Shown here: one piece after another, positions 1,208 to 36,468 of the stretch
Layout: each line of letters starts with the position of its first letter
Numbering within the stretch: position 1 is the stretch's first letter
Assembly: GCA_024276495.1 (NCBI GenBank)
Contig: JAJRXC010000018.1
Location: 1 to 37,267 of the forward strand
DNA: 37,267 nucleotides
Direction: 5' to 3'
Origin: Actinomycetes bacterium
GTDB taxonomy: Bacteria; Actinomycetota; Acidimicrobiia; Acidimicrobiales; Aldehydirespiratoraceae
Position numbers and translations under genes: made by a program
Notes under the pieces: generated by a model
The model's input: only the letters and a program-made list of their open reading frames with translations
The model's database searches: none
Told to the model about the DNA's origin: nothing

Positions 1208-1213
1208 ACGATA
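1208..1213 (-). promoter_or_regulatory. -10 element TATCGT, probable leaderless promoter of the LOG gene
   Basis: TATCGT on the minus strand is followed by 7 bases and the GTG start at 1200. No ribosome binding site fits between them. Confidence 0.6.
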
Positions 1214-1282
1214 ACCCGCCCCTGCGGTTCGACAGTGGTGGCCCGGCGCCCCGGGGAGTGGGCGCGGGGCGAGGAGGAGATC

Positions 1283-1288
1283 TAGGGT
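1283..1288 (+). promoter_or_regulatory. -10 element TAGGGT, probable leaderless promoter of the flavin oxidoreductase
   Basis: TAGGGT is followed by 6 bases and the GTG start at 1295. The divergent LOG promoter lies 70 bases away in the same intergenic region. Confidence 0.6.
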
Positions 1289-1294
1289 CGTGGT

Positions 1295-2086
1295 GTGCGC
1301 CACGGGATCTTCGTCGCTCCCTTCGGGCCGCTTGCCGATCCGCACAAGCTCATCGATCTCGGAGCGACCGCGGAGGAGTCCGGCTGGGATGGTCTGTTCC
1401 TGTGGGACCACGTGCTGCGGCCGGAGAGCAACGAGATCCTCGACACGTGGGTGTCACTCGGCGCGATCGCGGCGGCGACGGTGAAGATCCGGCTCGGGCC
1501 GATGGTCACCCCGATTCCGAGACGGCGACCGATCAAGTTGGCTCGTGAGGCGATCACGGTCGACCTCCTGAGCGACGGGCGGCTGACCATCGGCGTCGGG
1601 TCCGGGGTCGACACCGGTGGGGAGCTGTCGCGCTTCGCAGAGACCGTCGACCCCCGCGAGCGGGGGGCCCTGCTCGACGAGGGCCTCGACCTGCTCGCCC
1701 GGTTGCTCGATGGTGACACGGTTGCCCATGTCGGCGACCACTTCCGGGTGGAGGGCGTGCTTCTCGAGCCCCGGCCGGTGCAGCGTCCTCGTCCGCCGAT
1801 CTGGTGTGCGGCCCGGGGAACGGCGATGCGACCGGTGCGTCGGGCCGCTCGCTACGACGGCATGTTCCCGATCGAAGTCGACGCCGACAGCTTCCGTCGG
1901 GCGCTCGACGAGGTCGTCGCCACCCGTGGTGACCTCGACGGGTTCGATGTGTGCCTTCGGACCGAGCACGACGGCGAGCCCCCGGCGTTCGCGGATCTCG
2001 GCGCGACCTGGCTGCTTCGTGCGTTCCCGCCGGTGGTCGATCTCGACGAGTTGTTCGACGCGGTGATGCACGGGCCGCCCCGCTGA
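1295..2086 (+). CDS. LLM-class (luciferase-like) flavin-dependent oxidoreductase
   Basis: The 263-residue product opens with RHGIFVAPFG, the first beta strand of the luciferase-like TIM barrel. It continues with AEESGWDGLFLWDHV near residue 27, LGPMVTPIPRRRP near 67, and SDGRLTIGVGSG near 92, all typical of F420- or FMN-dependent bacterial luciferase-like monooxygenases and reductases. Such enzymes oxidise or reduce diverse small molecules with a bound deazaflavin or flavin. It is at the short end for the family, mainly in the C-terminal half, but has no internal break. The GTG at 1295 is the start consistent with the reading frame and with the TAGGGT box. Whether it uses F420 or FMN, and on what substrate, cannot be told from the sequence alone. 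Confidence 0.87.
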   Translation: MRHGIFVAPFGPLADPHKLIDLGATAEESGWDGLFLWDHVLRPESNEILDTWVSLGAIAAATVKIRLGPMVTPIPRRRPIKLAREAITVDLLSDGRLTIGVGSGVDTGGELSRFAETVDPRERGALLDEGLDLLARLLDGDTVAHVGDHFRVEGVLLEPRPVQRPRPPIWCAARGTAMRPVRRAARYDGMFPIEVDADSFRRALDEVVATRGDLDGFDVCLRTEHDGEPPAFADLGATWLLRAFPPVVDLDELFDAVMHGPPR

Positions 2087-2135
2087 ACGCGGGCACCCCG
2101 GGGCGCCGGTTTCGGGCGCGGCCGCGGGTGGCGGG

Positions 2136-2141
2136 TAGATT
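2136..2141 (+). promoter_or_regulatory. -10 element TAGATT, probable leaderless promoter of the carboxylase genes
   Basis: TAGATT is followed by 7 bases, six of them C, and then GTG at 2149. Confidence 0.6.
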
Positions 2142-2148
2142 GCCCCCC

Positions 2149-3893: not shown

Positions 3894-3899
3894 GCGCGG

Positions 3900-3924
3900 C
3901 GGACCCGGGCATGGCCCGGGTCCG
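3900..3924. terminator. Perfect hairpin between convergent genes, probable bidirectional terminator
   Basis: An 11-bp perfect inverted repeat (CGGACCCGGGC and its complement) with a 3-base loop ATG sits between the stops of accE (3893) and pheA (3931). There is no T tract, so it would be a non-canonical actinobacterial-type intrinsic terminator acting on both strands. Confidence 0.7.
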
Positions 3925-3930
3925 GTTCGT

Positions 3931-4869: not shown

Positions 4870-4877
4870 GAACACGG

Positions 4878-4883
4878 AGGATA
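4878..4883 (-). promoter_or_regulatory. -10 element TATCCT, probable leaderless promoter of pheA
   Basis: TATCCT on the minus strand is followed by 8 bases and GTG at 4869. This decides against the ATG at 4926, which would lie upstream of the transcription start. Confidence 0.55.
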
Positions 4884-4956
4884 GGGCCGTCGATCGGGTC
4901 CCACGGAACCTTTCGGCGTCGACCATGACGGTCCGGCTCCGACGGCGGCTCGGCTC

Positions 4957-5765
4957 GTGCGCAACTATCAGCTGCCGGCCGGCCTCTACACCCTCGCGGC
5001 CTCGCTGATCTGGGCGGTGAACACACTGTTCCCGCTCGCCGCCGGTCTTTCGATCGCGGTGCTCGCAGCGACGACGGTGCTGTATCTCCTCGCGGCCCGA
5101 GCCGAGGCCGGGGTGGTCGTGTTCGCGATCGTGTCGCCGTTCATGGGTCTCGGGTTCACGTTCTACTCCAGGCGCGCCAGATCACGGGCCTGGCGATGCT
5201 CGTGGGCACCACGAACGCCGCATCGGTGCGGAGCTCCGCGAGCAGACGAGAGTCGGGATCACCTACGGCTGGAACCGGCAGGGGCTGCGGCTCCCGATGT
5301 TGTCGGGCGTCGTCCGGGGAACGTTCGTCGCCTGGGCGTTCCATTCGGCCCAGCCGTACCTCCTGGCGCTGTTGGACGACGACAAGATCTGGGTGGTCGG
5401 GGCGATCACGGCGCTGATGTCGTTGTCGACGATCCTCGGCAACCAGGTGGTAGAGGTGTTCACCCGCCATTGCGGTCGGCGCAGCACGATCATCCTGGGT
5501 GGCTCGGTGGTGGCGACGGTCGCGTCGGTGACGATGGGGCTCAACGGGTCGTTTTGGGTCGCGACCGTCGCCTTCTTGGCGGTGACGGGATCGTTGGGGG
5601 TGATCTCGCCCGTGCGGCATGCCTATGTCCACCATGTGGCGCCGAGTGCGCATCGGCCGGCGTCGTGCCCGGGCCGGGACCTGTGCGGCGCAGGGGCTTC
5701 CCCGCGACGCCCATGTCGAGTCGTTCCCCCAGATGGTGGTCGTGGCCGGGGGTCGACCGGAGTGA
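4957..5765 (+). pseudogene. Decayed MFS transporter, several internal deletions and frameshifts
   Basis: Remnants of one major facilitator transporter lie in order but in different frames. 4957 to about 5172 encodes the N-terminus (NYQLPAGLYTLAASLIWAVN, then AEAGVVVFAIVSPFMGLGF), with an apparent in-frame loss of helices between them. About 5172-5218 encodes ARQITGLAMLVGTT in a second frame. About 5219-5665 encodes VGITYGWNRQGLRLPMLSG, FHSAQPYLLALL and VRHAYVHHVAPSAHR in a third frame. About 5665-5765 returns to the second frame with GTCAAQGLPRDAHVESF and a TGA at 5763. Intact relatives have roughly 400 residues or more in one frame, whereas these pieces sum to about 265. The pieces are in the right order, so this is decay in place rather than recombination. 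No promoter of the leaderless type precedes it. Confidence 0.8.
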
Positions 5766-5803
5766 GTTACATCCCCTAGAACAGTTGTCGCCGATTGTGT
5801 AAC
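5766..5803. promoter_or_regulatory. Inverted repeat GTTACA-N26-TGTAAC at the desaturase promoter, possible operator
   Basis: The half-sites are at 5766-5771 and 5798-5803. The right one overlaps the -10 hexamer TAACAT of the desaturase gene, so a bound repressor would block the promoter. The gene two positions downstream encodes a PaaX-like regulator, which is a candidate binder; known PaaX sites are also two short boxes separated by a little under 30 bases. That link is inference. Confidence 0.4.
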
Positions 5804-5805
5804 AT
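5800..5805 (+). promoter_or_regulatory. -10 element TAACAT, probable leaderless promoter of the desaturase operon
   Basis: TAACAT is followed by 7 bases and ATG at 5813. It overlaps the right half-site of the inverted repeat at 5766-5803. Confidence 0.6.
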
Positions 5806-5812
5806 GTCGGGC

Positions 5813-6820
5813 ATGACACCCCGCTCTCCGGTCGACGCGATGACCCACGACCAACTCGTCGAAGCACTCACGGGTGGACTCGCCCCCGCTCCCGACGCGC
5901 TGCCTCCCTTCGAAGGTTCCGATCGTCTTCGCCCGGACGGCCGGCCCCGCCCCGAGTTCCGGGCGGAGCTGCGTCGGATCCCCGACGTCCGCAACGCGGG
6001 ACTGGTCGCGATCGTGGTGGCCTACCCGTTCGTGGTCATCGGGGCCGCGGTCGTGCTCGACCATCCGCTCATGTGGGTCGCCGCGTTCTTCTTGATGGGC
6101 GGCTTCTTCCAGCGGGCCCTCACCCTCTTCCACGAGGGTTCGCATCGACTGTTGTTCTCCAACCGCACCATCAACGATCTGATCGGTGAGAAGTTCATCG
6201 GCTGGCTCGCCTTCGGTACCGGCGACAACTCCTACCGCCTGGCCCACGCCCAACACCATCGCGAGGAGTTCGGGGAGAAGGAACCCGACTTCGCGCTCTA
6301 CGCCCGCTACCCGATCTCCCGGGCCTCGATGCGGCGCAAGCTCCTTCGCGACGCCTTCGGGATCTCCGGATGGAAGAACATGAAACCGGCGCTGGTGGGT
6401 CTCTTCGTGAAGGGACGGCGGATCCGGGCCCTGCGCTTCCTGGGAGGCCAGGTGCTCGTCTTCGCCGTCTTCGCCCTCCTCGGACATCCCTGGCTCTACC
6501 TGCTGCTCTGGCTGCTCCCGTGGATGACGTATTGGCGGGTCGCCAACCGCCTGCGGGCGTTGGCCGAGCATGCCGGGATGACCCGTTCCCCGGACCGCAG
6601 AAGGTCGAGCCACCACATCCGCCAGGGATTCCTGTCGAGCCACGTCTTCTTGTCGCAGTCGATCGGCCTGCACCTCGCCCACCATGTCGACTCCGGCATC
6701 CCGATGTCTCGGCTCCCCGCCCTCCAGCGCGCGCTCGAAGAGGACGGCTACGTCACCGACGCGATCACCCACCCCGGCTACTGGGCGTTCTGGCGCACCC
6801 TGGTCCGCCCCGACGACTGA
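5813..6820 (+). CDS. Membrane fatty acid desaturase family protein
   Basis: This 335-residue integral membrane di-iron protein carries three histidine boxes: HEGSH (HxxxH) near residue 110, HAQHH near 145, and HLAHH near 287. It also has the supporting RALAEHAG motif near 251. Hydrophobic stretches near residues 62-84 and 215-235 are the likely membrane hairpins. Such proteins insert double bonds or hydroxyl groups into acyl chains, carotenoids or related lipids using O2 and electrons from ferredoxin or a reductase. ATG at 5813 was chosen over upstream in-frame starts because of the TAACAT box. The PaaX-like gene follows after one base, so the two are surely co-transcribed. Substrate and regiospecificity are unknown. 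Confidence 0.88.
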   Translation: MTPRSPVDAMTHDQLVEALTGGLAPAPDALPPFEGSDRLRPDGRPRPEFRAELRRIPDVRNAGLVAIVVAYPFVVIGAAVVLDHPLMWVAAFFLMGGFFQRALTLFHEGSHRLLFSNRTINDLIGEKFIGWLAFGTGDNSYRLAHAQHHREEFGEKEPDFALYARYPISRASMRRKLLRDAFGISGWKNMKPALVGLFVKGRRIRALRFLGGQVLVFAVFALLGHPWLYLLLWLLPWMTYWRVANRLRALAEHAGMTRSPDRRRSSHHIRQGFLSSHVFLSQSIGLHLAHHVDSGIPMSRLPALQRALEEDGYVTDAITHPGYWAFWRTLVRPDD

Positions 6821-6821
6821 G

Positions 6822-7604
6822 GTGCGGCCGCTCTCGGCCCGAAGTGTCGTCGCCTCCACGCTCCTCGGGACGCTTCCACCCCGACTTCCCGGGCACCTGC
6901 TCGTGGCGTTCGCGCACGAGTTCGGCATCGCGGCGGGAACAACACGCGTCGCCCTGAGCCGGATGGTGGAACGAGGGGAACTGGCCCGTGACGACGACGG
7001 CACCTACGAGCTCCGGGGCCCGTTGCTCGAGCGCCAGCGTCGACAGGAGGCGGGCCTCGCCCCGATCACCCGACCATGGAACGGCGACTGGGAGATCCAC
7101 GTCGTGCGGACCGGCCGGCGGGGGTCGGGGGATCGTGCCGCCCTGCGACGGGCCGCTCGGCGGCTCGGACTGCGTGAACGTCGCGACGGAGTCTGGCTCC
7201 GGCCCGACAATCTGGACCCCGCTCGGCTCCCGAACGAGCGGGCGACCCTCGCTCGGCAGGCCGACCGTTTCTTCGGCGCCCCGGCGGAGGGCATCGATCC
7301 TCGCGGACTTGCCGCCGAGATCTTCGACCTCGATGCCTGGGCCTCGGCCGCCGACGAGCTCGGCGCCGCGATCGACGAGATGATCGTGGCGTTCGACGAC
7401 GACCCGGATGCGCCGCTGGCCGCCGGATTCGTCCTCGCCGCGGAAGTGCTGCGCCATCTCGTCGCCGATCCGCTGCTGCCGCCCCGCCTCTGCCCGGCCG
7501 GATGGCCGGCACCCCGGTTGCGTGCCGCCTACCGCGACTACGACGCCGCCTACCGGCAGCGGTTGTCGGCCTTCTTCCGGTCGCGATCTAGATTGACGCG
7601 ATGA
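6822..7604 (+). CDS. PaaX-like transcriptional regulator
   Basis: The 260-residue protein starts at GTG 6822, one base after the desaturase stop. Its N-terminus, LSARSVVASTLLG, then AGTTRVALSRMVERGEL and a wing GTYELRG, matches the winged-helix domain of the PaaX family. The middle carries the PaaX core (PWNGDWEIHVVRTG, then LGLRERRDGVWLRPDNL), and the C-terminal helical domain resembles the family's ligand or CoA-thioester sensing part. PaaX of E. coli represses phenylacetate degradation and responds to phenylacetyl-CoA. No paa genes are present here, so this paralogue more likely controls the adjacent desaturase, possibly sensing an acyl-CoA. The stop overlaps the hydrolase start by four bases (ATGA). 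Confidence 0.82.
   Translation: MRPLSARSVVASTLLGTLPPRLPGHLLVAFAHEFGIAAGTTRVALSRMVERGELARDDDGTYELRGPLLERQRRQEAGLAPITRPWNGDWEIHVVRTGRRGSGDRAALRRAARRLGLRERRDGVWLRPDNLDPARLPNERATLARQADRFFGAPAEGIDPRGLAAEIFDLDAWASAADELGAAIDEMIVAFDDDPDAPLAAGFVLAAEVLRHLVADPLLPPRLCPAGWPAPRLRAAYRDYDAAYRQRLSAFFRSRSRLTR
7589..7594 (+). promoter_or_regulatory. -10 element TAGATT inside the paaX-like gene, probable promoter of the hydrolase
   Basis: TAGATT is followed by 6 bases and ATG at 7601. It lies within the last codons of the upstream gene, so the hydrolase may be expressed both from the operon and independently. Confidence 0.55.
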
Positions 7605-9556: not shown

Positions 9557-9562
9557 AGGATA
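9557..9562 (-). promoter_or_regulatory. -10 element TATCCT, probable leaderless promoter of the cyclotransferase-like gene
   Basis: TATCCT on the minus strand is followed by 8 bases and GTG at 9548. The same hexamer and spacing precede pheA. Confidence 0.55.
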
Positions 9563-13459: not shown

Positions 13460-13465
13460 TAGAAT
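13460..13465 (+). promoter_or_regulatory. -10 element TAGAAT, probable leaderless promoter of the acyltransferase-glycosyltransferase fusion
   Basis: TAGAAT is followed by 9 bases and ATG at 13475, the longest spacing seen here. Confidence 0.55.
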
Positions 13466-13474: not shown

Positions 13475-16123
13475 ATGGGCGCCGCTGCAATCCCGACCGC
13501 AGGACGGGACACCGATCGTGTGCTCGGCCTCGACGGTCTGCGGGCGATCGCGGCGATCGCGATCGTCTTCCATCACGTCGGGTTCCAGTCGACGGCCACG
13601 TTCAACGGGGCCTGGGGCCGCTATCTCGGTCGCCTCGACATCGGCGTTCCGGTCTTCTTCACCCTGTCCGGGTTCTTGCTGTTCGGTCCGATCGCTCGTG
13701 CCGTGCTCGAAGATCGGCCGCTGCGCCCGTTGACGGTGCATCTCTGGCGGCGAGCGCTGCGCATCTACCCGGCGTTCTGGGTCGCCCTCCTCCTGATCGT
13801 GGTGTTCACCAGCGAAGCGTTCGCCGACGTCGGCGGCGCGGTCACGACGTTTCTGCTGATACACATCCATTGGCCGACCTACTCGATCGGTCCGATGCCG
13901 CAGGCGTGGAGCCTGGCGACCGAGGTCAGCTTCTACGCCGCGCTGCCGCTCATGGCGCGGGTGCTGCGTCCGTGGCTGCGCTCGCGTGACCACGCCGGGC
14001 GCCGCAACGGCCTCCTCGTGTTCACCGCGGGCTGCTACCTGCTGTCGGTGTTCTTCCGGGTCTGGGTGCTCGGCCTCGACAATCGGTGGACGAGCTCGGC
14101 CGTGCTGTGGCTGCCGGGAACCCTCGACTACTTCGCGATCGGCATGGCGCTGGCGGTGGCCCGCGCCGGATTCCGACCCGGTGACCGGGTCCGTGAGCGG
14201 TTGGAGCGGGTCGCCGCTCCGGCCGGATGGTGGTGGCTGGGGGCGGCGGTGCTGTTCCATGTCGTGTCCCAGTCGATGGGTCTCGCCCTCGGCGTCGATC
14301 GGGCCTCGTGGCCTCGGGAGATGGCCCGCCAGGTCGTCTACGGGGCGATCGGCTTCGCCTTGCTCTTTCCCCTGGTCTTCGGCGACCGGAGACGGTCGGT
14401 GGTGCGTCGTTTCGTGCGAAGTCGGCCGATGGAGTGGCTCGGGACGATCTCCTACTCGATCTATCTGTGGCACATGGTGTTCATCGTCCACCCGTGGCGG
14501 CCGCTGGCCGATCGGCTCGGGGCGGTTCGCGACGCGGGACCGTTGCTTTGGGACTACGCGGGGACCGGCTTTTGGACCTATCTCGTCCTCGCGAGCGTGC
14601 CGACCTTCTTCGTGTCGGTGATCAGCTACTACGTCGTGGAGCGAGCCGGGCTGAACCTCCAGCGGGTCCTCCGTCGACCGGTCGTCGACGTCACCCCGAC
14701 CGAATCGATGGTCACCCGGGTTCGACGACGCTGGTCGGCGGCGGCGTTTCGGATGCAGCTCCTGGTGATCGCGGCCGGTGGTCTCGTCCTTCGGATCGTG
14801 TACATCGTGGTCGCCAAGCGCGATCAGGGCCTCGACACCACCGACGTGTTCCCCGGCGACCAGTTCTACTACTCGCTCGCGGCCGACGCGCTCGCCAAGG
14901 GTGAGGGCTTCGTGACCCCCTGGCAGCACATCTCGGTCCGGCTCGGCCTGGCCGACCCGACCGACGTCGCGGCCCACGCCGCCGACCACCCGCCGCTGAC
15001 CGCGCTCGTCGCCGCTCCCGCATCCCTTCTCCCCGGCGGCCGCGGTGAGCACCTCTTCGAACAACGCCTCGTCATGAGCCTGGTCGGCGCCGCGGTCATC
15101 GTCGTCGTCGGCCTGCTCGCCCGCGAGCTGGCGGGGCGCGCCGTCGGGATCACGGCCGCGCTGATCGCCGCCGTCTATCCGGCGTTTTGGATCAACGACG
15201 GTCTGGTGATGGCCGAGTCGCTCGCCACCTTGATGGTCGGTGGGGCGCTGCTGGCCGCGGTTCGCCACCACAAGACGCCCACCGGCCGGCTGGCTGCGGG
15301 CCTCGGCGTCGCGATCGGTTTGGCCGCGCTCGCCCGGGCCGAGTCGCTCCTGTTGCTCCCGCTCGTGGTCGTCCCGCTCATGTGGACCAGTCATCCACGA
15401 TGGAGAGACCGTCTCCGGGGCGCGGCCGTGTCGGGCGCCATGGCCGGGCTCGTGCTGGCCCCCTGGGTGATCCCGAACCTGGTGCGGTTCGATGAGCCCG
15501 TGGTGATGTCGACCAACGACGGGCTCACCTTGATCGGCGCGAACTCGCCCCAGACCTATGGCGGCGACGCGATCGGATTCTGGTCACTCGAATACGCCCG
15601 CCAGTTGGAGGAGGATCTCCCCGAGCTCGTCGACGCCGACCCGAGTGTCGTCTCACGGATCTGGAGAGATGAGGCCCTCGCGTTCGTGGGCGACAACCTC
15701 GACGACGTGCCGAAGGTGGTCGCGGCGCGACTCGGTCGCCTCTGGTCGATCTACCGACCGCTTCAGATGGCCGAGTTCAACACCGGCGAGGGCCGTGAGC
15801 TCTGGGCGTCGTATCTCGCCCTCGTCGGATTCTTCGTCGTCGTCCCCTTCGCGTTGATCGGCTGGTGGCGCCTTCGCCGCGACGGGATCTACCGCTGGCC
15901 CCTGGTCGCCATGATCGTGCACGTCTCGATCGTCGGCGCCGTGTTCTACGGCATCCCCCGATTCCGGGTTCCCGCCGACGTCGCGATCGTCGTCGCGGCG
16001 GCGATCGGGATCCACTGGTTGGCTAGCCTCGGAACATGTCCACCACCGCGCACCTCGTCTTCGCCGGCGTCATCATCACCACCGTCGTCTTCATCTACTC
16101 CCTCGTCCGTCAGGGAGTCCTGA
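13475..16123 (+). CDS. Fusion of acyltransferase-3 and GT-C (GT39/83-like) glycosyltransferase
   Basis: The 882-residue protein has two multi-spanning halves. Residues about 16-390 form an acyltransferase-3 domain (LDGLRAIAAIAIVFHHVGF with the catalytic-type His; VPVFFTLSGFLLFGP; SYSIYLWHMVF), which O-acylates glycans. Residues about 418-850 form a GT-C glycosyltransferase that uses a polyprenyl-phosphate sugar (GDQFYYSLAADALAKGEGF with the loop-1 Asp; HPPLTALV; YPAFWINDGLVMAES; RFRVPADVAIV). This half is paralogous to the two transferases at 17940-20656. No stop separates the halves; Met 412 in the linker lacks promoter or ribosome binding signals. The last 29 residues (from about 853) are low-complexity Ser/Pro produced where the frame runs 88 bases into the DUF2304 gene. 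That tail may be recent read-through after loss of an earlier stop. Confidence 0.88.
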   Translation: MGAAAIPTAGRDTDRVLGLDGLRAIAAIAIVFHHVGFQSTATFNGAWGRYLGRLDIGVPVFFTLSGFLLFGPIARAVLEDRPLRPLTVHLWRRALRIYPAFWVALLLIVVFTSEAFADVGGAVTTFLLIHIHWPTYSIGPMPQAWSLATEVSFYAALPLMARVLRPWLRSRDHAGRRNGLLVFTAGCYLLSVFFRVWVLGLDNRWTSSAVLWLPGTLDYFAIGMALAVARAGFRPGDRVRERLERVAAPAGWWWLGAAVLFHVVSQSMGLALGVDRASWPREMARQVVYGAIGFALLFPLVFGDRRRSVVRRFVRSRPMEWLGTISYSIYLWHMVFIVHPWRPLADRLGAVRDAGPLLWDYAGTGFWTYLVLASVPTFFVSVISYYVVERAGLNLQRVLRRPVVDVTPTESMVTRVRRRWSAAAFRMQLLVIAAGGLVLRIVYIVVAKRDQGLDTTDVFPGDQFYYSLAADALAKGEGFVTPWQHISVRLGLADPTDVAAHAADHPPLTALVAAPASLLPGGRGEHLFEQRLVMSLVGAAVIVVVGLLARELAGRAVGITAALIAAVYPAFWINDGLVMAESLATLMVGGALLAAVRHHKTPTGRLAAGLGVAIGLAALARAESLLLLPLVVVPLMWTSHPRWRDRLRGAAVSGAMAGLVLAPWVIPNLVRFDEPVVMSTNDGLTLIGANSPQTYGGDAIGFWSLEYARQLEEDLPELVDADPSVVSRIWRDEALAFVGDNLDDVPKVVAARLGRLWSIYRPLQMAEFNTGEGRELWASYLALVGFFVVVPFALIGWWRLRRDGIYRWPLVAMIVHVSIVGAVFYGIPRFRVPADVAIVVAAAIGIHWLASLGTCPPPRTSSSPASSSPPSSSSTPSSVRES
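16024..16029 (+). promoter_or_regulatory. -10 element TAGCCT inside the fusion gene, probable promoter of the DUF2304 gene
   Basis: TAGCCT is followed by 6 bases and ATG at 16036. Its TAG is out of frame in the fusion gene. Confidence 0.55.
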
Positions 16124-20662: not shown

Positions 20663-20668
20663 ATGGTA
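20663..20668 (-). promoter_or_regulatory. -10 element TACCAT, probable leaderless promoter of the glycan operon
   Basis: TACCAT on the minus strand is followed by 6 bases and GTG at 20656. It is 9 bases from the divergent -10 at 20678-20683. Confidence 0.55.
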
Positions 20669-20677: not shown

Positions 20678-20683
20678 TAACGT
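20678..20683 (+). promoter_or_regulatory. -10 element TAACGT, probable leaderless promoter of the CMAH/UlaG-like gene
   Basis: TAACGT is followed by 8 bases and ATG at 20692. The whole divergent intergenic region is only 35 bases, so the two polymerase footprints must overlap. Confidence 0.55.
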
Positions 20684-23128: not shown

Positions 23129-23134
23129 ACGGTA
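23129..23134 (-). promoter_or_regulatory. -10 element TACCGT, probable leaderless promoter of the GNAT-like gene
   Basis: TACCGT on the minus strand is followed by 7 bases and ATG at 23121. Confidence 0.55.
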
Positions 23135-25100: not shown

Positions 25101-25106
25101 TAGGCT
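25101..25106 (+). promoter_or_regulatory. -10 element TAGGCT, probable leaderless promoter of the cyclase-like gene
   Basis: TAGGCT is followed by 8 bases and ATG at 25115. Confidence 0.55.
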
Positions 25107-26057: not shown

Positions 26058-26063
26058 TAGCCT
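26058..26063 (+). promoter_or_regulatory. -10 element TAGCCT, probable leaderless promoter of fhaA
   Basis: TAGCCT is followed by 7 bases and GTG at 26071. It excludes the longer open frame starting at 25972. Confidence 0.6.
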
Positions 26064-26070
26064 CGTCGCC

Positions 26071-26724: not shown

Positions 26725-26771
26725 GATCGACCGACGTCTCCCCGCGGCACTCCTGTGCGTGGACTCGGCGT

Positions 26772-26777
26772 TAGTCT
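26772..26777 (+). promoter_or_regulatory. -10 element TAGTCT, probable leaderless promoter of fhaB-pstP-rodA-pbpA
   Basis: TAGTCT is followed by 7 bases and GTG at 26785. The next three genes are joined by 4-base overlaps, so this promoter may drive all four. Confidence 0.6.
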
Positions 26778-26784
26778 CGGCCCC

Positions 26785-27309
26785 GTGTCGGACCAGCTCC
26801 TCATCGTGCTCCGGGTGTGCCTGTTGGCCCTCGTCTATCTGGTGTTCTTCCGGGTCCTGCGCGCGGTCTGGGTCGAGCTGCGGGACGAGGGTGCGTCCGC
26901 CGGTGCCGCGATGACGCCGACCATGGCGGCGCGGCGAGTGTCGCGCCCTGCCCCGGTGCCCGCACCGGCCGCGGTCGGCGGTGGCGGACCGGCCCCGGTC
27001 GACCCCGCCTCGTCGTCCCCGGCGGCGGCCCGCCTCGTCGTCGTCGCGCCGCCCTCGCTCGCCGGCCACGCCTTCGCGCTCGACGGGGAGACCACCATCG
27101 GGCGGGGCGCCGGATGCGGGGTGGCCATCAACGACGCCCACGTGTCGAAGCTCCATGCCCGCGTCTACCCCCACGAGGGCACGTGGTTCGTCGAGGATCT
27201 CGGCTCCACCAACGGCACCTCGGTCGACGGCGCGCCGATCTCGGCGCCGACCCCGATCGGCGCCGGTGGCCGGATCTCGATCGGCGAGATCGTGATGGAG
27301 TTGGCATGA
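26785..27309 (+). CDS. fhaB: FhaB/FipA: membrane-anchored FHA domain protein
   Basis: The 174-residue protein begins with a membrane helix (about residues 5-23, LLIVLRVCLLALVYLVFF), then an Ala/Pro-rich linker. An FHA domain from about residue 80 carries TIGRGAGCGVAI, the Ser/His pair in VSKLHARV, and LGSTNGTSVDG. In mycobacteria FhaB (FipA) binds phosphorylated FtsZ and FtsQ and supports division under stress. The GTG at 26785 was chosen from the TAGTCT box. The stop overlaps the phosphatase start (ATGA). Confidence 0.92.
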   Translation: MSDQLLIVLRVCLLALVYLVFFRVLRAVWVELRDEGASAGAAMTPTMAARRVSRPAPVPAPAAVGGGGPAPVDPASSSPAAARLVVVAPPSLAGHAFALDGETTIGRGAGCGVAINDAHVSKLHARVYPHEGTWFVEDLGSTNGTSVDGAPISAPTPIGAGGRISIGEIVMELA

Positions 27310-28493: not shown

Positions 28494-29815
28494 CCGCCGT
28501 CGGCGCGCGGCGTGGAGGGGTCCGCCCCGAGATCGCCGCGCGTCGCCCCCGCCGGGTCGAGCTCGGCCTGATCGTGCTCATCGCCATCATCGTGATGGCC
28601 GCCTACGGGCTGGCCAGCCTCGGCACGTCGGCCTCGGTTCCGGGCAACCTCGGCCCGTTTCTCGCCTGGATGTTGGGTTTGTTCTTCTTCGTGCACGTCG
28701 CCGTGCGCCGTCTCGCTCCCGCGGCCGATCCGGTCCTGTTGCCGATGGCGCTGTTGTTGAACGGCATCGGCTACGTGATGATCGCCCGGCTCGGCGGCGA
28801 CGTCGCCGGCGGCAGCGACCTCGCCGGGCTCCAGTCGGTGTGGACGGCGGTCGGCATCGGCGGGTTCGTCTCCACCCTCTTGCTGGTCCCCCGGGTCCGG
28901 TCCCTGGCCCAGTACCAGTATCTGCTCGGTCTCGGCGGCATCGGTCTGCTCGCGCTCCCGCTCCTGCCCGTCGGCGTCGAGATCAACGGCGCCCGGATCT
29001 GGGTGAGCATCGGGCCGGTCAACTTCCAACCCGGTGAGTTCGCGAAGATCGCCCTCGCGCTCTTCTTCGCCGCGTACCTGGTCGATGCGGGGGAGCTGAT
29101 CAAGAACCGGCTCGAGCTTCGTGATCTCGTCCCCATCGCCGCGGCGTGGGGGGCATCGGTGGGCGTCATGGTCCTCGAACGCGACCTCGGATCGTCGATG
29201 CTCGTCTTCGCGATGTTCGTCGTCTTGATGTGGGTGGCGACGGCGCGAACGATGTTCCTCGGGCTCGGCGCCGCCCTGTTCGCCGCCGGGGGCTTCGTCG
29301 CGTTCCGGCTCTTCGCCCACGTCGAGCGGCGCATCGACAGCTGGCTCGACCCGTGGGCCGACCCCCGGGACAGCGGCTTCCAGATCATCCAGGCGACGTT
29401 CTCGATGGCAGAGGGTGGCCTCGCCGGCACCGGTCTCGGACGAGGAGACCCCGACCGGGTCCCGTTCGCGGAGACCGACTTCATCTTCGCGGCGATCGGG
29501 GAGGAGCTCGGCCTCGCCGGCACCACCGCGATCCTGATGGCGTTCCTGATCCTCATCGGCTCGGGCCTTCGCATCGCGCTGCGAGCGACGCGACCATTCG
29601 AGAAGCTCCTGGCCGTCGGGCTCACGACGCTGCTCGGGATCCAGGCGTTCATCATCATGGCCGGTGTCGTGCGGCTCATTCCCCTGACCGGCATCACCTT
29701 GCCGTTCGTGAGCTATGGCGGTTCGGCCCTGGTCTCGAACTATGTCGTCCTCGCCCTGTTGATGCGGATGTCGCACGAGCAACGAACGACCGGCGACGCG
29801 GAAGCCCCGCGATGA
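28490..29815 (+). CDS. rodA: SEDS-family peptidoglycan glycosyltransferase (RodA/FtsW)
   Basis: The 441-residue protein with about ten to twelve membrane helices belongs to the SEDS family, which polymerises glycan strands from lipid II. Marks include NGARIWVSIGPVNFQPGEFAKI, the catalytic-type Asp in LERDLGSS (about residue 231), FIFAAIGEELG, and LTGITLPFVSYGGSAL near the C-terminus. In the equivalent actinobacterial cluster this gene is RodA (FtsW-like) and works with the adjacent class B PBP. The start GTG at 28490 overlaps the phosphatase stop, and the stop overlaps pbpA (ATGA). RodA is preferred over FtsW from synteny, not from a sequence feature. Confidence 0.93.
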   Translation: MTAVGARRGGVRPEIAARRPRRVELGLIVLIAIIVMAAYGLASLGTSASVPGNLGPFLAWMLGLFFFVHVAVRRLAPAADPVLLPMALLLNGIGYVMIARLGGDVAGGSDLAGLQSVWTAVGIGGFVSTLLLVPRVRSLAQYQYLLGLGGIGLLALPLLPVGVEINGARIWVSIGPVNFQPGEFAKIALALFFAAYLVDAGELIKNRLELRDLVPIAAAWGASVGVMVLERDLGSSMLVFAMFVVLMWVATARTMFLGLGAALFAAGGFVAFRLFAHVERRIDSWLDPWADPRDSGFQIIQATFSMAEGGLAGTGLGRGDPDRVPFAETDFIFAAIGEELGLAGTTAILMAFLILIGSGLRIALRATRPFEKLLAVGLTTLLGIQAFIIMAGVVRLIPLTGITLPFVSYGGSALVSNYVVLALLMRMSHEQRTTGDAEAPR

Positions 29816-31389
29816 ACCGGCGGATCCGCTCCCTCGGCATCGCGTTCATCGTGTTGTACACGGTGTTGTTCGCCCAGCTCAACCGGGTGCAGTTCGTGCA
29901 GGCCGAGGCCTACCGCACGAATGCCGCCAACATCCGGCCGCTCCTACGCGAGTTCGGCCAGGAGCGGGGTGACATCCTCACCGCCGACGGTGTGGTCGTG
30001 GCCTCCTCCGTGCCGGTCGACGACGGGCAGGTCGACTTCCGCCGGGTGTATCCCACCGGTGACCGCTACGCCCACGTGGTCGGATTCCAGTCGTTCAACC
30101 AGGGCGCGTTCGGTCTCGAACGGGAGTTCAACGACCGTCTCGCCGGCGCCGCTTTCGAGCAACAGTTCGAGTCGGTGAAGGATCTGTTTCGCGACCGGGA
30201 CACGACCGGCACGATCGTCATGACGTTGCGCGACGACATCCAGCAGGCTGCGGTGGCCGCCCTGGGAGAACGCAACGGGTCGGTCGTCGCGCTCGATCCG
30301 CGAACCGGCGAGGTCCTCGCGATGTGGACGTATCCGAGCTTCGATCCGAACCGGTTGTCGGGGCTCGACGGTGCGGCGGTCAACGAGGCCTACCGGAGCC
30401 TCCTCGACGACCCCGACGATCCGTTGTTGGCCAAGTCCTTTCGTGAGGTGTTCTTCCCGGGTTCGACGTTCAAGCTGGTGACCGCGGCGGCCGCGCTCGA
30501 CACCACCTCCATCGGTCCCGAGAGCCCCGTGTTCCCGACCACCGACGTCTACGAACCGCTGCCGTCGGGATCGCCGATCCGCAACTTCGGCAACAGCACC
30601 TGCGGGGGGGATCTTCGAGAGGTGCTGCGGGTGTCGTGCAACACGGCGTTCGCCGAGATCGGGGCGGAATGGGTCGGCCCCGACGCGATGGTCCGGACCG
30701 CCGAGAACTTCGGTTTCAACTCGACCCCCCCGCTCGACATCCCCAACGCCGTCGCCTCTCGCTTCCCGACCGACTACGGCGCCTATCTCGCCGACCTCGA
30801 CGTCTACCGGGGAGATCACGACGCCGATCCCGAGGCACCGTCGATCCTGCCCAACGGCGGCACCCCGATCCACGAGAACTCGGCGATCCTCGCCCAGGCG
30901 TCGATCGGGCAAAACGATGTGAAGGCGACACCGCTGCAGATGGCGCTCGTCGCCGCGGCCATCGCCAACGAGGGGCTGATCATGGCCCCGCATGTCGTGT
31001 CGGAGGTTCGCGCCGCGGACGGCAGCAGCTATGAGGAGTTCGGTCCGAGCCTCTGGAGGGTCGCGATCTCGCCGACGTCGGCCGATGTGCTCCGTGAGGC
31101 GATGATCAATGTCGCGGAGAACGGCACCGCCCGGCGAATGCAGGTTGACGGTCTCGTCGTCGGCGGCAAGACCGGAACCGCTCAGCTCGGCTCCGACCCC
31201 CCCAACTCGCACGCGTGGGTCGTGGGATTCGCCGGGCCCCCCGACGGTCCTCCCGAGATCGCGGTCGCCGTGATCGTCGAGGCGCAGCCCGGCGCGAGCG
31301 AGCAGACCGGCGGCTCGGTCGCGGCGCCCATCGCCCAAGCGGTGATTCGCGCCGCGTTCGGGATCGACGCGCCGGCCGAGCCCGGCTGA
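29812..31389 (+). CDS. pbpA: PbpA: class B penicillin-binding protein (transpeptidase)
   Basis: The 525-residue protein has an N-terminal membrane helix (about residues 6-22), a dimerisation/pedestal region (YRTNAANIRPLLREFGQERGD) and a transpeptidase domain from about 155. The three active-site motifs are intact: the Ser nucleophile in PGSTFKLV (SxxK, about residue 218), SCN in RVSCNTAF (about 276), and KTG in VGGKTGTAQ (about 452). It lacks the glycosyltransferase domain of class A enzymes and cross-links peptidoglycan made by the adjacent SEDS protein. In mycobacteria PbpA is a PknB substrate. It is the last gene of the overlap-coupled block; pknB follows after 68 bases with its own promoter. 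Confidence 0.96.
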   Translation: MNRRIRSLGIAFIVLYTVLFAQLNRVQFVQAEAYRTNAANIRPLLREFGQERGDILTADGVVVASSVPVDDGQVDFRRVYPTGDRYAHVVGFQSFNQGAFGLEREFNDRLAGAAFEQQFESVKDLFRDRDTTGTIVMTLRDDIQQAAVAALGERNGSVVALDPRTGEVLAMWTYPSFDPNRLSGLDGAAVNEAYRSLLDDPDDPLLAKSFREVFFPGSTFKLVTAAAALDTTSIGPESPVFPTTDVYEPLPSGSPIRNFGNSTCGGDLREVLRVSCNTAFAEIGAEWVGPDAMVRTAENFGFNSTPPLDIPNAVASRFPTDYGAYLADLDVYRGDHDADPEAPSILPNGGTPIHENSAILAQASIGQNDVKATPLQMALVAAAIANEGLIMAPHVVSEVRAADGSSYEEFGPSLWRVAISPTSADVLREAMINVAENGTARRMQVDGLVVGGKTGTAQLGSDPPNSHAWVVGFAGPPDGPPEIAVAVIVEAQPGASEQTGGSVAAPIAQAVIRAAFGIDAPAEPG

Positions 31390-31443
31390 CCTGCCCTGAC
31401 AGGCTTCTCGCCACCCTGCGACGGTCCGCCGCCGACACACCGT

Positions 31444-31449
31444 TAGAAT
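31444..31449 (+). promoter_or_regulatory. -10 element TAGAAT, probable leaderless promoter of pknB
   Basis: TAGAAT is followed by 8 bases and ATG at 31458, giving pknB a promoter independent of the upstream operon. Confidence 0.6.
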
Positions 31450-31457
31450 CTGCGGCC

Positions 31458-33560
31458 ATGTCCGATCAGGGCCCGACCGTCTTCAACGGACGCTACGAAC
31501 TGCTGCGCCACATCGCCCGTGGCGGGATGGCCGACGTCTATCTCGCCCGAGACGAGCTGCTCGATCGCGAGGTCGCGCTCAAGGTGCTGTTCCCCGAGTT
31601 CGCGAACGATCCGAACTTCGTCGAACGGTTCCGTCGTGAGGCCCAGGCCGCCGCGAACCTCAATCACGCCAACATCGTCGGCATCTACGACTGGGGCCAG
31701 GAGCGGGGCACCTACTACATCGTGATGGAGCATGTCTCCGGACGCAGCATGTCGGATGTGCTTCGCTCGACCGGCCCGCTGCAGCCGGACCGGGCAGCCG
31801 AGATCGCCTCCGACGTGGCCGCCGCGCTCTCCACGGCGCATCAGGCCGGGTTGGTTCACCGCGACATCAAGCCGGGCAACATCCTCATCTCCGACGGGGG
31901 CGACGTGAAGGTCGCCGACTTCGGGATCGCCACGGCTCTCGCCGGCGGCACCGACGCCGGGCTCACCCAACACGGCTCCGTCATGGGGACCGCCACCTAC
32001 TTCTCGCCCGAACAGGCCCAGGGCAAGCAGGTCGACGGGCGCAGCGACCTCTACTCGTTGGGCGTCGTGCTCTACGAGATGCTGACCGGCGTGCCACCGT
32101 TCCAGGCCGACACGCCGGTCGCGGTCGCGTACAAGCACGTCCAGGAACGTCCCGAGTCGTTGAGTGATCGTGGCCTCAACGTCGCCCGGTCGCTCAACGC
32201 GATCACGATGAAGCTCCTGGCCAAGAACCCGGCCAACCGCTATCCGACCGCCGAGGACCTCCGGTCGGATCTCGGCCGGTATCTCGCCGGCGCCCATCAG
32301 GTTCCCGGCGCCGCCGCGGGGGCGGCGGCGGCCGCCAAGGGTTCGGTGGAGGCCAAACCGTCGTCCGCAGAGCTCGTCGATCCGACCACCGTGCAGCCGG
32401 CCACCCCCGCGGCGGCGGTCCCCGCGGTGGTTCCCGCCACCGCACCGGCCCCGGTCGCCCCGGTGGGCCCGGTTCTCGATCCCAACGCCCTCGCCGCCCA
32501 CTACGCCGGCGGCTACTACTACGACGACGAGCCACCCCGCCGCGACGACTGGAAACGCACCGTCGCCCTGCTCGTCGGGCTCGGCGTGTTGATCTTCATC
32601 CTCGGGTTCCTGACGATCGCCTTCGGTCGCCAGCTCGGCGTCTTCGGCAGCGACGACGACGCCCCCGCGGAGCTGACGATCGACAAGATCGACGTCCCCC
32701 GCCTCATCGGGATGCAGGTCGACGAAGCCGAGGCCGAGTTGCGGGCGCTCGGTCTCGTCCCGGTCCGGACGCTTCGCCAGAACGCCAACGTCGCGGTCAA
32801 CGAGGTGTTCGACCAGACACCGCCGTCGGGCCAACGTCTCGATCCCGGCGCCGAGGTCGAGCTCTTCGTCAGCACCGGGGAGGCGCTCACCGTGCCGACG
32901 GTGCTGGCCCTCAGCCAGGAGGAGGCCATCGCGGCGCTGGCCGAGGCGGGCTACGAATGGGACGTCGAGTCCCAGGCCGACATCGCCGAGCTCGGCTTGG
33001 TGATCGCCCAGAGTCCGGCTCCCGGCACCGAGTTGGCGCCCGGCGAGTCTGTCACCATCACGGTGTCGACCGGCCCCGAGCAGGTGCTGGTCCCCGACCT
33101 GGAGGGGCGCACGCTCACCGAGGCGTTCAACCTCTTGTCATCCGCCGGTTTCCGGGTCGATGGCGAACCGATCGAGGAGCCGTCCGAGGAGATCGAGGAG
33201 GGGCTGGTGATCCGCACCGAACCGGCTGCCAACAGCCTGCTCTCCGCGGGGGCACCGATCCGGATCGTCATCTCGACCGGCATCCCCCAAGTCGTCGTCC
33301 CGACGGTCGTCGGGCTCTTCGCCGACACCGCGCTCGCCACGTTGCGCAACGTCGGCCTCGAACCCGTCACCCAGTTCCAGACGGTGCCGTTCGGCGATCC
33401 GCAGGTCGGCCTCGTGATCGACCAGACGCCACCGAACTTCGAAGAGGTGCCGCTGGGTTCCGAGGTGGTCATCACGGTCGGCGAAGCGGGTCCCGAACCC
33501 ACGACCACGACGACCACCACCACGACCACGACGACGACCACGACGACCGCCGCCCCGTGA
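31458..33560 (+). CDS. pknB: PknB: transmembrane Ser/Thr kinase with four PASTA domains and poly-Thr tail
   Basis: The 700-residue receptor kinase senses muropeptides or lipid II and controls cell-wall synthesis and division. The kinase domain (about residues 12-275) has the glycine loop IARGGMADVYLA, Lys in VALKVL, HRDIKPGN near 134, DFG near 154, an activation loop with several Thr, and SDLYSLGV. An Ala/Pro linker precedes the membrane helix (about 367-390). Four PASTA repeats start near residues 408, 476, 541 and 611 (VPRLIGM, VPTVLAL, VPDLEGR, VPTVVGL). After the fourth, the extracellular end is 16 consecutive Thr then AAP. No second kinase (PknA) is next to it, unlike in Mycobacterium. 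It is convergent with the amidotransferase gene, 9 bases apart. Confidence 0.97.
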   Translation: MSDQGPTVFNGRYELLRHIARGGMADVYLARDELLDREVALKVLFPEFANDPNFVERFRREAQAAANLNHANIVGIYDWGQERGTYYIVMEHVSGRSMSDVLRSTGPLQPDRAAEIASDVAAALSTAHQAGLVHRDIKPGNILISDGGDVKVADFGIATALAGGTDAGLTQHGSVMGTATYFSPEQAQGKQVDGRSDLYSLGVVLYEMLTGVPPFQADTPVAVAYKHVQERPESLSDRGLNVARSLNAITMKLLAKNPANRYPTAEDLRSDLGRYLAGAHQVPGAAAGAAAAAKGSVEAKPSSAELVDPTTVQPATPAAAVPAVVPATAPAPVAPVGPVLDPNALAAHYAGGYYYDDEPPRRDDWKRTVALLVGLGVLIFILGFLTIAFGRQLGVFGSDDDAPAELTIDKIDVPRLIGMQVDEAEAELRALGLVPVRTLRQNANVAVNEVFDQTPPSGQRLDPGAEVELFVSTGEALTVPTVLALSQEEAIAALAEAGYEWDVESQADIAELGLVIAQSPAPGTELAPGESVTITVSTGPEQVLVPDLEGRTLTEAFNLLSSAGFRVDGEPIEEPSEEIEEGLVIRTEPAANSLLSAGAPIRIVISTGIPQVVVPTVVGLFADTALATLRNVGLEPVTQFQTVPFGDPQVGLVIDQTPPNFEEVPLGSEVVITVGEAGPEPTTTTTTTTTTTTTTTTAAP
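33501..33548 (+). repeat. ACG/ACC triplet repeat encoding 16 threonines
   Basis: Sixteen ACG or ACC codons in a row form the C-terminal tail of PknB. Because the unit is three bases, slippage would change the tail length without frameshift. Confidence 0.9.
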
Positions 33561-33569
33561 CCCGCCCGG

Positions 33570-34169: not shown

Positions 34170-34188
34170 GGCCGCGACGCGATCTCTC

Positions 34189-36453
34189 TCATCTCCGTCG
34201 TTCGTCCCCGACGATGCCGGCGCTGGCGCGGGCCAACTCGATCTGTTGCGCCCGCTCCTCGTCGTGACGCCGGGCCTCGCCGGCCTCGACGGCTTCGAGC
34301 ACGTGTATGGCGATGTCGGCGACGCGGACCTCGTCCTCCTCCTTGCCGGCGGCCTTCACCCCGTCGTCCATCATCACGTAGCAAAACGGGCAGGCCGTGG
34401 CGACGCGATCGGCGCCCGTGGCGATCAGCTCCCGGGCCCGGACGTCGTTGACCTTCTCGCCGACGTTCTCCTCCATCCACATGCGGGCGCCGCCGGCCCC
34501 ACAACACATGCCCTTGGTGCCGTTGCGTTCGGCCTCGACGATCTCGATGCCACCGAGCCGGCCGAGCACCTTGCGGGGCGCCATGTAGACGTCGTTGTGG
34601 CGGCCGAGATAGCAGCTGTCGTGGTAGACGACCCGCTCCTCGAGCTCGGCCCCGGCGAGGTCGAGATGGCCCTGCTCGACCAACCACTCGAGGAACTGGG
34701 AGTGGTGCACGACCTCGTAGTGGCCGCCCAGCTGGGGATACTCGTTGGCGAGCGTGTTGAAGCAGTGGGGGCACTGGGTGACGATCTTCTTCACGCCCAT
34801 CGCGTTGAGGGTCTCGATCGTCTGCGAGGCGAGCATCTGGAAGAGGTACTCGTTGCCGGAACGGCGGGCAGAGTCGCCCGTGCAGCTCTCGGCCGGGCCG
34901 AGGATGGCGAAGTCGACGCCGGCGCGCTGCATGAGCTTCGCCATCGCCTGGGTGACCTTCTTGTTCTTGTCGTCGAACGCGCCGGCACAGCCCACCCAGT
35001 AGAGGTACTCGGCCTCCATCGGATCGGTGCCGTCGATGATGCGGATGCCGTCGATCCCGTTGGTCCAATCGGCTCGTTCGCTCTGGCTCATTCCCCACGG
35101 ATTCGACGAGTTCTCCATCGAACGGAACGCCTGGCCGAGCTCGGACGGGAAGTCGGATTCCATCAGGGTGAGGTAGCGGCGCATGTCGAGGATCTTGTCG
35201 AGGATCTCGATGTTGACCGGGCAGATCTCGTCGCAGGCCCGACACGTGGTGCAGGCCCACAGCTCGGCTTGGGTGATGCGGTCGAACATCCAGTTGGCCG
35301 GGACGGTGATCTCGTCGTCGACCCCGATCGGGGGGGACACGGCCGGGTCGCCGGTGCGGGCCATGATCTCCCCGGTCTTGAGCACGATCTCGCGGGGATC
35401 GAGCGGCTTGCCGGTCGCGTGGGCCGGGCACACCGACGTGCAGCGGCCACACATCGTGCAGGCATCGGTGTCGAGGAGCTGCTTCCAGGTGAAGTCCTCG
35501 ATGACCGACGCGCCGAACGTCTCCAGCTCGGTCTCGCCGGAGACGAGATCGGGCATCGGCTTCATCGCCCCTTTCGGACGGTCCTTGTCGGACAGGTACA
35601 TGTTGAGCGGCGACGTGAACATGTGGCGCAACATCGTCGTCGGCAAGATGACCAGGAACGCCATGAAGCTGATCACGTGGGCGATCCACCAGGCCTGGTG
35701 CCAGCCGGCGAGGTTGCTCCATTCGTCGACGGTGGTGGCCAGCGGATACCCGATGAAGCTCCAGCTCTCGAAGTCGGGGCTGCCGTCCTTGGCGATGCGG
35801 AACATCTCGGCGCCGAAGCCGGTGAGGCCGATCGCGAAGAACACGCCGAGGATCACCATGTGTTCGGGCTTGCTCTTGATGCGGATGCGGTAGGGGCGCC
35901 AGTTCCACGGGCCGTAACGGCGCACGATCGCCCACACGATGCCGACCATGAACATCAGGCCGGCCCCGTCGCCGACGGCCGCGTAGGCCTGGTAGACGGT
36001 GCCGTGGAGGAACTTCGCCCCATCGGGCAGTTGATGGTTGACCTCGAGCGTGGTGGTGACCCCGAGCAGGATCAGGAACCCGAAGTAGATCATGGAGTGC
36101 ATGATCCCGGCGCCGGGTTCACGCAGCAGGGTCTGCATGTAGACTCCGGACCGGAAGCTCTTGGCCCGTCGCGGCGCGTTCTTGAGGGTGGTCCGGCGAT
36201 TGTCGGGCCGGCCCCGTTCCCAGTTCTTCACCCGGTTGGCGAACATGACCGCGCCGTACACGAGCAGCATCGGGATGACGGCGTAGAAGGTGAGCTTGAG
36301 GCCGGTCGGGACGCCCCCGAACACCTCACGCTGCACTTCGCTGTCGTCCTCGAAACCGGTGAGGGTGGGAGCGATGCCGGACGCGACGGTGAACAGGGCG
36401 ATTCCGACGCCGAGACCGATGACGAGGTGGTGGGGCAACAGACGCGATTTCAT
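34189..36453 (-). CDS. etfD: EtfD-like membrane iron-sulfur oxidoreductase (Rv0338c type)
   Basis: The 754-residue protein has six or so membrane helices in the first 270 residues, resembling a NarI-type cytochrome b domain. Two [4Fe-4S] motifs follow, CTMCGRCTSVCP near residue 333 and CTTCRACDEICP near 402. Two cysteine-rich CCG domains of the heterodisulfide reductase type come last: first GCAGAFDD and CPHCFNTLANEYP; second DSCYLGRHND and CCGAGGARMW. The architecture and length match mycobacterial Rv0338c, proposed to be EtfD, which passes electrons from ETF and acyl-CoA dehydrogenases in beta-oxidation to menaquinone. The TATCTT box lies 9 bases before ATG 36453. The amidotransferase gene follows after 19 bases. 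The winged-helix gene is divergent. Confidence 0.92.
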   Translation of the reverse strand: MKSRLLPHHLVIGLGVGIALFTVASGIAPTLTGFEDDSEVQREVFGGVPTGLKLTFYAVIPMLLVYGAVMFANRVKNWERGRPDNRRTTLKNAPRRAKSFRSGVYMQTLLREPGAGIMHSMIYFGFLILLGVTTTLEVNHQLPDGAKFLHGTVYQAYAAVGDGAGLMFMVGIVWAIVRRYGPWNWRPYRIRIKSKPEHMVILGVFFAIGLTGFGAEMFRIAKDGSPDFESWSFIGYPLATTVDEWSNLAGWHQAWWIAHVISFMAFLVILPTTMLRHMFTSPLNMYLSDKDRPKGAMKPMPDLVSGETELETFGASVIEDFTWKQLLDTDACTMCGRCTSVCPAHATGKPLDPREIVLKTGEIMARTGDPAVSPPIGVDDEITVPANWMFDRITQAELWACTTCRACDEICPVNIEILDKILDMRRYLTLMESDFPSELGQAFRSMENSSNPWGMSQSERADWTNGIDGIRIIDGTDPMEAEYLYWVGCAGAFDDKNKKVTQAMAKLMQRAGVDFAILGPAESCTGDSARRSGNEYLFQMLASQTIETLNAMGVKKIVTQCPHCFNTLANEYPQLGGHYEVVHHSQFLEWLVEQGHLDLAGAELEERVVYHDSCYLGRHNDVYMAPRKVLGRLGGIEIVEAERNGTKGMCCGAGGARMWMEENVGEKVNDVRARELIATGADRVATACPFCYVMMDDGVKAAGKEEDEVRVADIAIHVLEAVEAGEARRHDEERAQQIELARASAGIVGDERRR

Positions 36454-36462
36454 GGCGCCGCA

Positions 36463-36468
36463 AAGATA
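36463..36468 (-). promoter_or_regulatory. -10 element TATCTT, probable leaderless promoter of etfD
   Basis: TATCTT on the minus strand is followed by 9 bases and ATG at 36453. Confidence 0.55.

Follow-up and report, generated by a model that had tools for sequence, protein, structure and literature searches.

Leaderless genes preceded by a TANNNT box have been described in several bacterial lineages. In Actinobacteria, Zheng et al. 2011 reported the box about 12 bp upstream of the start codon and put leaderless genes at more than 20% (PMC3160421), and in Mycobacterium tuberculosis about a quarter of the genes with a primary transcription start site (TSS) are reported to be leaderless (PMC3898074). 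For Deinococcus-Thermus, a 2025 study in Life Sci Alliance described TANNNT directly before open reading frames (ORFs) as the -10 element of leaderless genes, tested by mutation and present at about 30% of ORFs (PMC12340547). TANNNT is also reported to be rare in all three coding frames of M. tuberculosis, where recoding that creates the word starts transcription inside genes (PMC10653884), and selection against accidental promoters has been reported for Escherichia coli (PMC5906472). Here, we analyzed a stretch of 37,267 nucleotides (the window) from an uncultured member of the Acidimicrobiia (assembly GCA_024276495.1, contig JAJRXC010000018.1), in which a first-pass annotation had listed 17 TANNNT boxes, each 6 to 9 bases before an ATG or GTG, and had read them as a sign of widespread leaderless transcription. 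Boxed starts of this kind recur across the genome, and the same word is strongly depleted from coding DNA in the genus. The explanation as a whole, in which the boxes serve as -10 elements with no requirement for a -35, the mRNAs are leaderless, and stray copies in coding DNA are removed, is in our judgment highly probable.

All 17 hexamers were verified, 11 on the plus and 6 on the minus strand, with ATG or GTG following after 6 to 9 bases in 11/11 and 6/6 cases (12 to 15 bases from hexamer start to start codon). Each boxed start opens a frame free of internal stops. A Pfam scan of 16 of these 17 frames (all but that of the gene starting at 9548) gave matches at E <= 0.001 for 15, of which 14 passed the curated cut-off, and no match for the frame starting at 23121. 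The window contains 27 TANNNT words in total when both strands are counted, 17 of which are the boxes. As the first-pass annotation had noted, plus-strand boxes are mostly TAGNNT (9/11), while the six on the minus strand are TAT or TAC; since boxes of the genome sample described below carry TAG on both strands (39/66 plus, 24/52 minus), this strand contrast within the window is probably due to chance. The further claim that the alignment lies far beyond chance drew only moderate support from the window itself: 18 hexamers had a start codon at 6 to 9 bases, versus 9.8 +/- 3.2 (maximum 16) in 60 dinucleotide shuffles. This modest margin, starts that had been chosen by eye, and the status of the window as an outlier all speak for chance, or for start codons chosen to fit the box. 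The decisive evidence on this point is the genome-wide peak at starts picked without regard to the box, the contrast between in-frame and out-of-frame candidates, and conservation.

The genome sample comprised 39 stretches in addition to the window (contig C5), covering 684 kb or about 16% of the assembly (4.33 Mb, 111 contigs), with 4.5 kb apparently masked. Genes were called with a home-made coding model trained on ORFs with GC3 > GC1 > GC2 (GC content by codon position), and starts were picked from the coding signal alone. A gene finder trained on the longest ORFs was dropped after Pfam matches, having made antisense calls such as 5156-6859 on the minus strand versus a desaturase frame on the plus strand. 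Out of 540 genes called, 485 were kept and 55 were dropped (open 5' end or score under 20). Upstream of the signal-blind starts of 482 genes (3/485 had too little upstream sequence), TANNNT was found at -12 (31 genes), -13 (18), -14 (11), and -15 (6), or 66 genes together, versus a background of 1.44 per position farther upstream; the genome-wide enrichment at this offset for which the first-pass annotation had called is thus present. When all candidate starts were considered, 116 of the 485 genes had a boxed in-frame candidate (2032 candidates), versus 8 and 3 with boxed pseudo-starts shifted out of frame by one and by two bases (957 and 403 candidates). The out-of-frame rate is about 0.8% per candidate, which would amount to about 16 of the 116 if valid for every in-frame candidate; some of these boxes may therefore be due to chance. 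With a slightly wider tolerance, 118/485 genes were boxed, at offsets of -12 (47), -13 (33), -15 (16), -14 (14), -16 (5), and -11 (3).

Conservation was assessed in orthologs of the window genes with at least 55% identity whose alignment came within three residues of the start, of which 64 were kept and 5 of 69 dropped (no start codon, or a contig edge). A box at -16 to -11 was present at 63/64 ortholog starts, versus 0 or 1 of 64 in each of eight control windows farther upstream, the sole unboxed start being that of the 7601 ortholog in genome G009. Fifteen of the 64 belong to a DUF2304 gene whose box, lying inside an upstream gene, could be kept for the sake of that gene's protein; when these are excluded, 48/49 are boxed. 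The DUF2304 relatives carry TAGCCT or TAACCT, and by frame reading the upstream protein changes and the T, A, and T stay. No eligible ortholog was available for the genes starting at 1200, 5813, and 25115, the last having none in the loci searched. Among alignments that fell short of the start or below 55% identity, and were not counted, unboxed starts were seen for the 23121 ortholog in G009 and for relatives of the 5813 gene in loci L024, L025, and L031. It is conceivable that the boxes are real -10 elements whose true start codons lie farther downstream, with leaders longer than they appear, as some signal-blind starts do lie downstream of boxed ones (5840 versus 5813, 13520 versus 13475). 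However, the TANNNT peak is present at the signal-blind starts as well, and 63/64 orthologs keep both start codon and box, by a filter that favors conserved starts. We consider such downstream starts improbable.

The in-frame excess was also found in 12 further genomes: two congeners (48/158 and 45/158 genes), one member of the same family (21/94), three genomes of the same order (26/113, 20/80, 9/62), two of the same class (14/69, 29/109), and four other genomes of the phylum (26/83 in G090, 12/78, 8/77, 13/70). Out-of-frame controls gave 0 to 6 genes per genome, both frames summed. Boxed starts are therefore spread over the phylum, as reported by Zheng et al. 2011 (PMC3160421). Together with the contrast of 116 in-frame versus 8 and 3 out-of-frame boxes and the boxed ortholog starts, this excess leaves chance or fitted start codons a negligible probability, and the claim of an alignment beyond chance holds on these genome-wide grounds.

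The distribution of boxes over gene contexts distinguishes a promoter from a translation signal. Divergent genes were boxed in 56/130 cases, versus 2/82 for genes overlapping the preceding gene (p = 2.7e-12), and same-strand genes in 5/45, 11/37, 27/70, and 15/103 cases for gaps of 1-20, 21-40, 41-100, and >100 bp. Boxes thus stand where transcription units begin, as far as gene order shows, and not at internal operon genes. As they are common at divergent genes and nearly absent from overlapping ones, the box is a promoter element and not a ribosome signal. A signal for translation in a 5' leader, such as an unusual ribosome-binding motif, would likewise be tied to the start codon, and the box does lie about where a Shine-Dalgarno (SD) sequence would be. 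However, overlapping genes need translation signals equally, coding DNA avoids the word in antisense orientation too (63 versus 215 in the genome itself), and the 16S rRNA tail is ordinary, which together make such a signal very improbable.

Other features of the 118 box-aligned starts are in line with a promoter. A strong SD (5 or more letters) was found at 6/118 boxed versus 73/365 unboxed starts, in a scan in which the box fills part of the scanned region, and TTG start codons were used by 1/118 versus 13/365. Start codons begin with A in 74% and with G in 25%; within the box, the third base is G in 53%, and C or G follows the box directly in 86%. In agreement with the first-pass annotation, no -35 consensus was visible upstream of these starts; the profile was flat (5/118 with TTG at -25 to -21 from the box, where about 3 were expected), and an element that is weak or variable in spacing may have escaped notice. 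No other upstream consensus was found in this set, and the lack of a conserved -35 element is shared with the -10-only sigma promoters of actinobacteria. A role of TAG as an in-frame stop before the start was not supported, with a third-position G equally common at -13 (20/33) and -12 (27/47).

Boxes are much denser in the window than elsewhere. By our own gene calls, 13/17 likely first genes are boxed in the window, versus 85/286 in the rest of the sample (Fisher p = 1.6e-4). The unboxed ones start at 519 (-), 9662 (+), 25004 (-), and 36572 (+); the boxed genes at 7601 and 26785 were not counted as first genes, and those at 9548 (below the score limit) and 16036 (overlapping another gene too far) stood outside all gene counts. 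The window is an atypical outlier in which box dominance is local, and since it was singled out by a reader, part of its excess is selection. The first-pass statement that nearly every transcription unit starts with a box, with few exceptions, thus describes the window and fails for the rest of the sample, and dominance as a general trait has to be given up in view of the divergent genes and of the 118/485 genes boxed overall. At the other extreme, two stretches on contigs C1 and C2 (L004, L005) had 0/13 and 0/15 genes boxed. Contamination as the reason was not supported: both keep the avoidance described below (6 versus 27.5, 11 versus 22.5) and nearly keep the tetranucleotide profile.

The second line of evidence comes from coding DNA. 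Of the 608 TANNNT words in the genome sample, 118 are boxes; the rest divide into 214 within the 567 kb of coding DNA and 276 within the 112 kb of non-coding DNA. Avoidance was counted in coding sequences with a score of 30 or more, trimmed at both ends. A synonymous shuffle was rejected because it exaggerated the depletion: other spacings also dropped, in the genome itself to about 0.37 for k = 6 and k = 9. As a reference, we therefore used the spacings TA-Nk-T with k = 6, 9, 12, 15, and 18, which leave the codon position of the T unchanged. For three congeners, the trimmed coding DNA contained 238 copies of TA-N3-T versus 825, 824, 797, 802, and 785 copies at these spacings. With a ratio of 0.29, it was the lowest of 64 XY-N3-Z words, the next being at 0.79. 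TAGNNT was avoided most (0.23 versus 0.30-0.32 for other third bases), so the commonest box type is also the most avoided word type. In each of the three congeners, TA-N3-T fell under the reference in all three frames and on both strands. The effect extends to codon choice: pyrimidine-ending codons ended in T in 83/3060 cases after tyrosine, versus 2955/24854 after Phe/His/Asn/Asp (p = 1.3e-70). TA-N3-T is thus depleted about 3- to 6-fold in coding DNA of the genus, on both strands, and is the one strongly avoided gapped word of the 64. As a separate observation, a 6.6-kb stretch of the same genome (L008, contig C6) has many TA and 3.2 TANNNT per kb versus a sample average of 0.9, and is perhaps a mobile or foreign element.

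Across nine Acidimicrobiia samples, the avoidance ratio was 0.35 (the genome itself), 0.17, 0.22, 0.39, 0.33, 0.34, 0.39, 0.32, and 0.28. The interval lay below 1 in eight of the nine; in G026 (0.33), the ratio reflects 4 versus 12 words, with an interval of 0.00-1.20. Some frames in G026 and G030 were low in counts and opposite in direction. The plainest case was G042 (55% GC), with 389 words at k = 3, whereas all other k values (0 to 18) gave 1133-1490. The four other genomes of the phylum gave 0.98 (G090), 0.54, 0.30, and 0.46, and 50 kb of E. coli gave 0.86 (0.81-0.93).

We propose that the boxes would act as -10 elements of a sigma factor, probably the housekeeping one, with no -35 required. 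RNA polymerase would initiate at the first base (A or G) of the start codon or a few bases upstream of it, and the ribosome with initiator tRNA would take the 5'-terminal AUG or GUG of the resulting leaderless mRNA. TA-N3-T alone would be nearly sufficient to start transcription, and because of this, stray copies would be harmful and would be removed by selection from coding DNA on both strands. A self-sufficient -10 box should be kept at the sites that need it and lost from all others; the data show both patterns, with identical letters, and the avoidance lends indirect support to the -10 word alone driving transcription. Leaderless mRNA at the boxed genes is very likely: the position of the box, its dependence on frame, its confinement to first genes, the scarcity of a strong SD, the absence of a visible -35, and conservation all agree with it. 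The leaderless reading of the first-pass annotation stands to this extent, with a TSS at the start codon predicted from the DNA. A wider claim has, in our view, slightly better than even prospects: that throughout Acidimicrobiia TA-N3-T is a reserved word that alone starts transcription, is purged about 2.5- to 6-fold from both strands, and shapes the codon after tyrosine, so that leftover non-coding copies approximate a ready-made promoter map and the avoided word shows, without RNA, which -10 sequence the main sigma factor recognizes.

Several observations weigh against this explanation. G090 has 26/83 genes boxed yet shows no overall avoidance (0.98), so avoidance and leaderless use are not strictly coupled. 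Nor was there significant extra avoidance in the genus of words followed by ATG or GTG (0.24 versus 0.29, p = 0.47), as a hazard from leaderless translation would predict; in G042 this extra avoidance was weak (0.22 versus 0.33, p = 0.033). The 16S rRNA carries an ordinary anti-SD, 74/130 divergent genes have no box at the -10 position, and a strong SD is uncommon as well (19% versus 9% in the control), so the explanation does not cover how the others start. Given strict spacing, the offsets of -14 to -16 (35/118) would place the start codon 2 to 4 bases into a short leader, and the position of the mRNA 5' end is inferred from DNA. Finally, since mycobacterial promoters have been reported to carry a -35 signal (PMC4128351), a weak one may have been missed here. 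In G090 (loci L144-L148), we also observed that a strong SD is common (0.44, control 0.14).

In the first half of the window, the box TATCGT (1208..1213, minus; offset -13) precedes a GTG at 1200 of a possible lysine decarboxylase family gene. On the plus strand, TAGGGT (1283..1288; -12) precedes a GTG at 1295 (luciferase-like monooxygenase; 5/5 aligned ortholog starts boxed), and TAGATT (2136..2141; -13) a GTG at 2149 (carboxyl transferase; 8/8). TATCCT (4878..4883, minus; -14) stands before the GTG at 4869 of a prephenate dehydratase gene (3/3), and TAACAT (5800..5805, plus; -13) before the ATG at 5813 of a fatty acid desaturase gene. A second TAGATT (7589..7594, plus; -12), within the 3' end of the upstream gene, serves an ATG at 7601 (metallo-beta-lactamase fold; 5/6 boxed), and a second TATCCT (9557..9562, minus; -14) a GTG at 9548 (1/1). 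TAGAAT (13460..13465, plus; -15) precedes the ATG at 13475 of a gene with an acyltransferase and a PMT-type domain (3/3). The DUF2304 gene (ATG at 16036; 15/15) is preceded by TAGCCT (16024..16029, plus; -12) and begins 88 bases within the upstream gene, so that its promoter box lies in that gene's coding sequence, toward the 3' end (16024-16123).

A divergent boxed pair follows, formed by TACCAT (20663..20668, minus; -12; GTG at 20656, weak PMT-type match; 3/3) and TAACGT (20678..20683, plus; -14; ATG at 20692; 8/8). The two start codons are 36 bp apart, with each promoter's upstream side within the other's, and both boxes recur in four other loci (L085, L023, L030, L025). The genome sample holds nine divergent pairs with both genes boxed, 25-95 bp apart. 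TACCGT (23129..23134, minus; -13) precedes the ATG at 23121 (5/5), and TAGGCT (25101..25106, plus; -14) the ATG at 25115 of a gene with a nucleotide cyclase domain. A cell-division and signalling cluster encoding FhaA, an FHA protein, PP2C, FtsW/RodA, PBP, and a PASTA kinase spans 26058-33560, an arrangement also known in other actinobacteria. Its boxes stand, all on the plus strand, at FhaA (TAGCCT, 26058..26063; -13; GTG at 26071; 3/3), the FHA-domain protein (TAGTCT, 26772..26777; -13; GTG at 26785; 1/1), and the Ser/Thr kinase with PASTA repeats (TAGAAT, 31444..31449; -14; ATG at 31458; 2/2). TATCTT (36463..36468, minus; -15) precedes the ATG at 36453 of a gene for a cysteine-rich/4Fe-4S protein (1/1).

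With annotation-independent controls, these results extend a known actinobacterial mode of expression to an uncultured class. They also provide a practical rule for correcting start codons in such genomes, as the first-pass annotation had suggested; in the window, it shifted seven signal-blind starts by 2 to 15 codons. Avoidance may prove of greater use than the start rule: simply counting words in coding DNA picks out a single gapped one, identical to the promoter box, so genomes might by themselves reveal the promoter specificity of uncultured bacteria. Expression constructs for such hosts should avoid TA-N3-T.

Leaderless TANNNT genes are not new for the phylum, having been published for Actinobacteria, as the first-pass annotation had stated. 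The TA-led genes of Actinobacteria and Deinococcus-Thermus have, like those studied here, TANNNT about 12 bp upstream (PMC3160421); there, the excess was tested by shuffling and the middle positions were little informative at high GC, and here too the box lies above random expectation, with a strong SD rare at the boxed start. Our analysis differs in concerning an uncultured genome and in its start-blind, frame, gene-order, and ortholog controls; the string "acidimicrob" is absent from the main text of Zheng et al. 2011 (PMC3160421). Judged by titles and abstract openings, we found no TSS map of a member of the Acidimicrobiia in the open PubMed Central (PMC) literature. Cortes et al. 2013 likewise describe for M. 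tuberculosis a TANNNT -10, no -35 consensus, and a purine start, from 5' ends that were measured there and are predicted here (PMC3898074), and in Deinococcus-Thermus the box has the same role in another phylum (PMC12340547). The avoidance of TA-N3-T in coding DNA is the finding added here, with a precedent in mycobacteria: in M. tuberculosis, as in this genus, the -10 word is scarce inside genes whatever the frame (PMC10653884). Beyond that report, the avoidance is seen here on the antisense strand too and against spacings of equal codon phase, a measure applied here to the sampled genomes and to E. coli.

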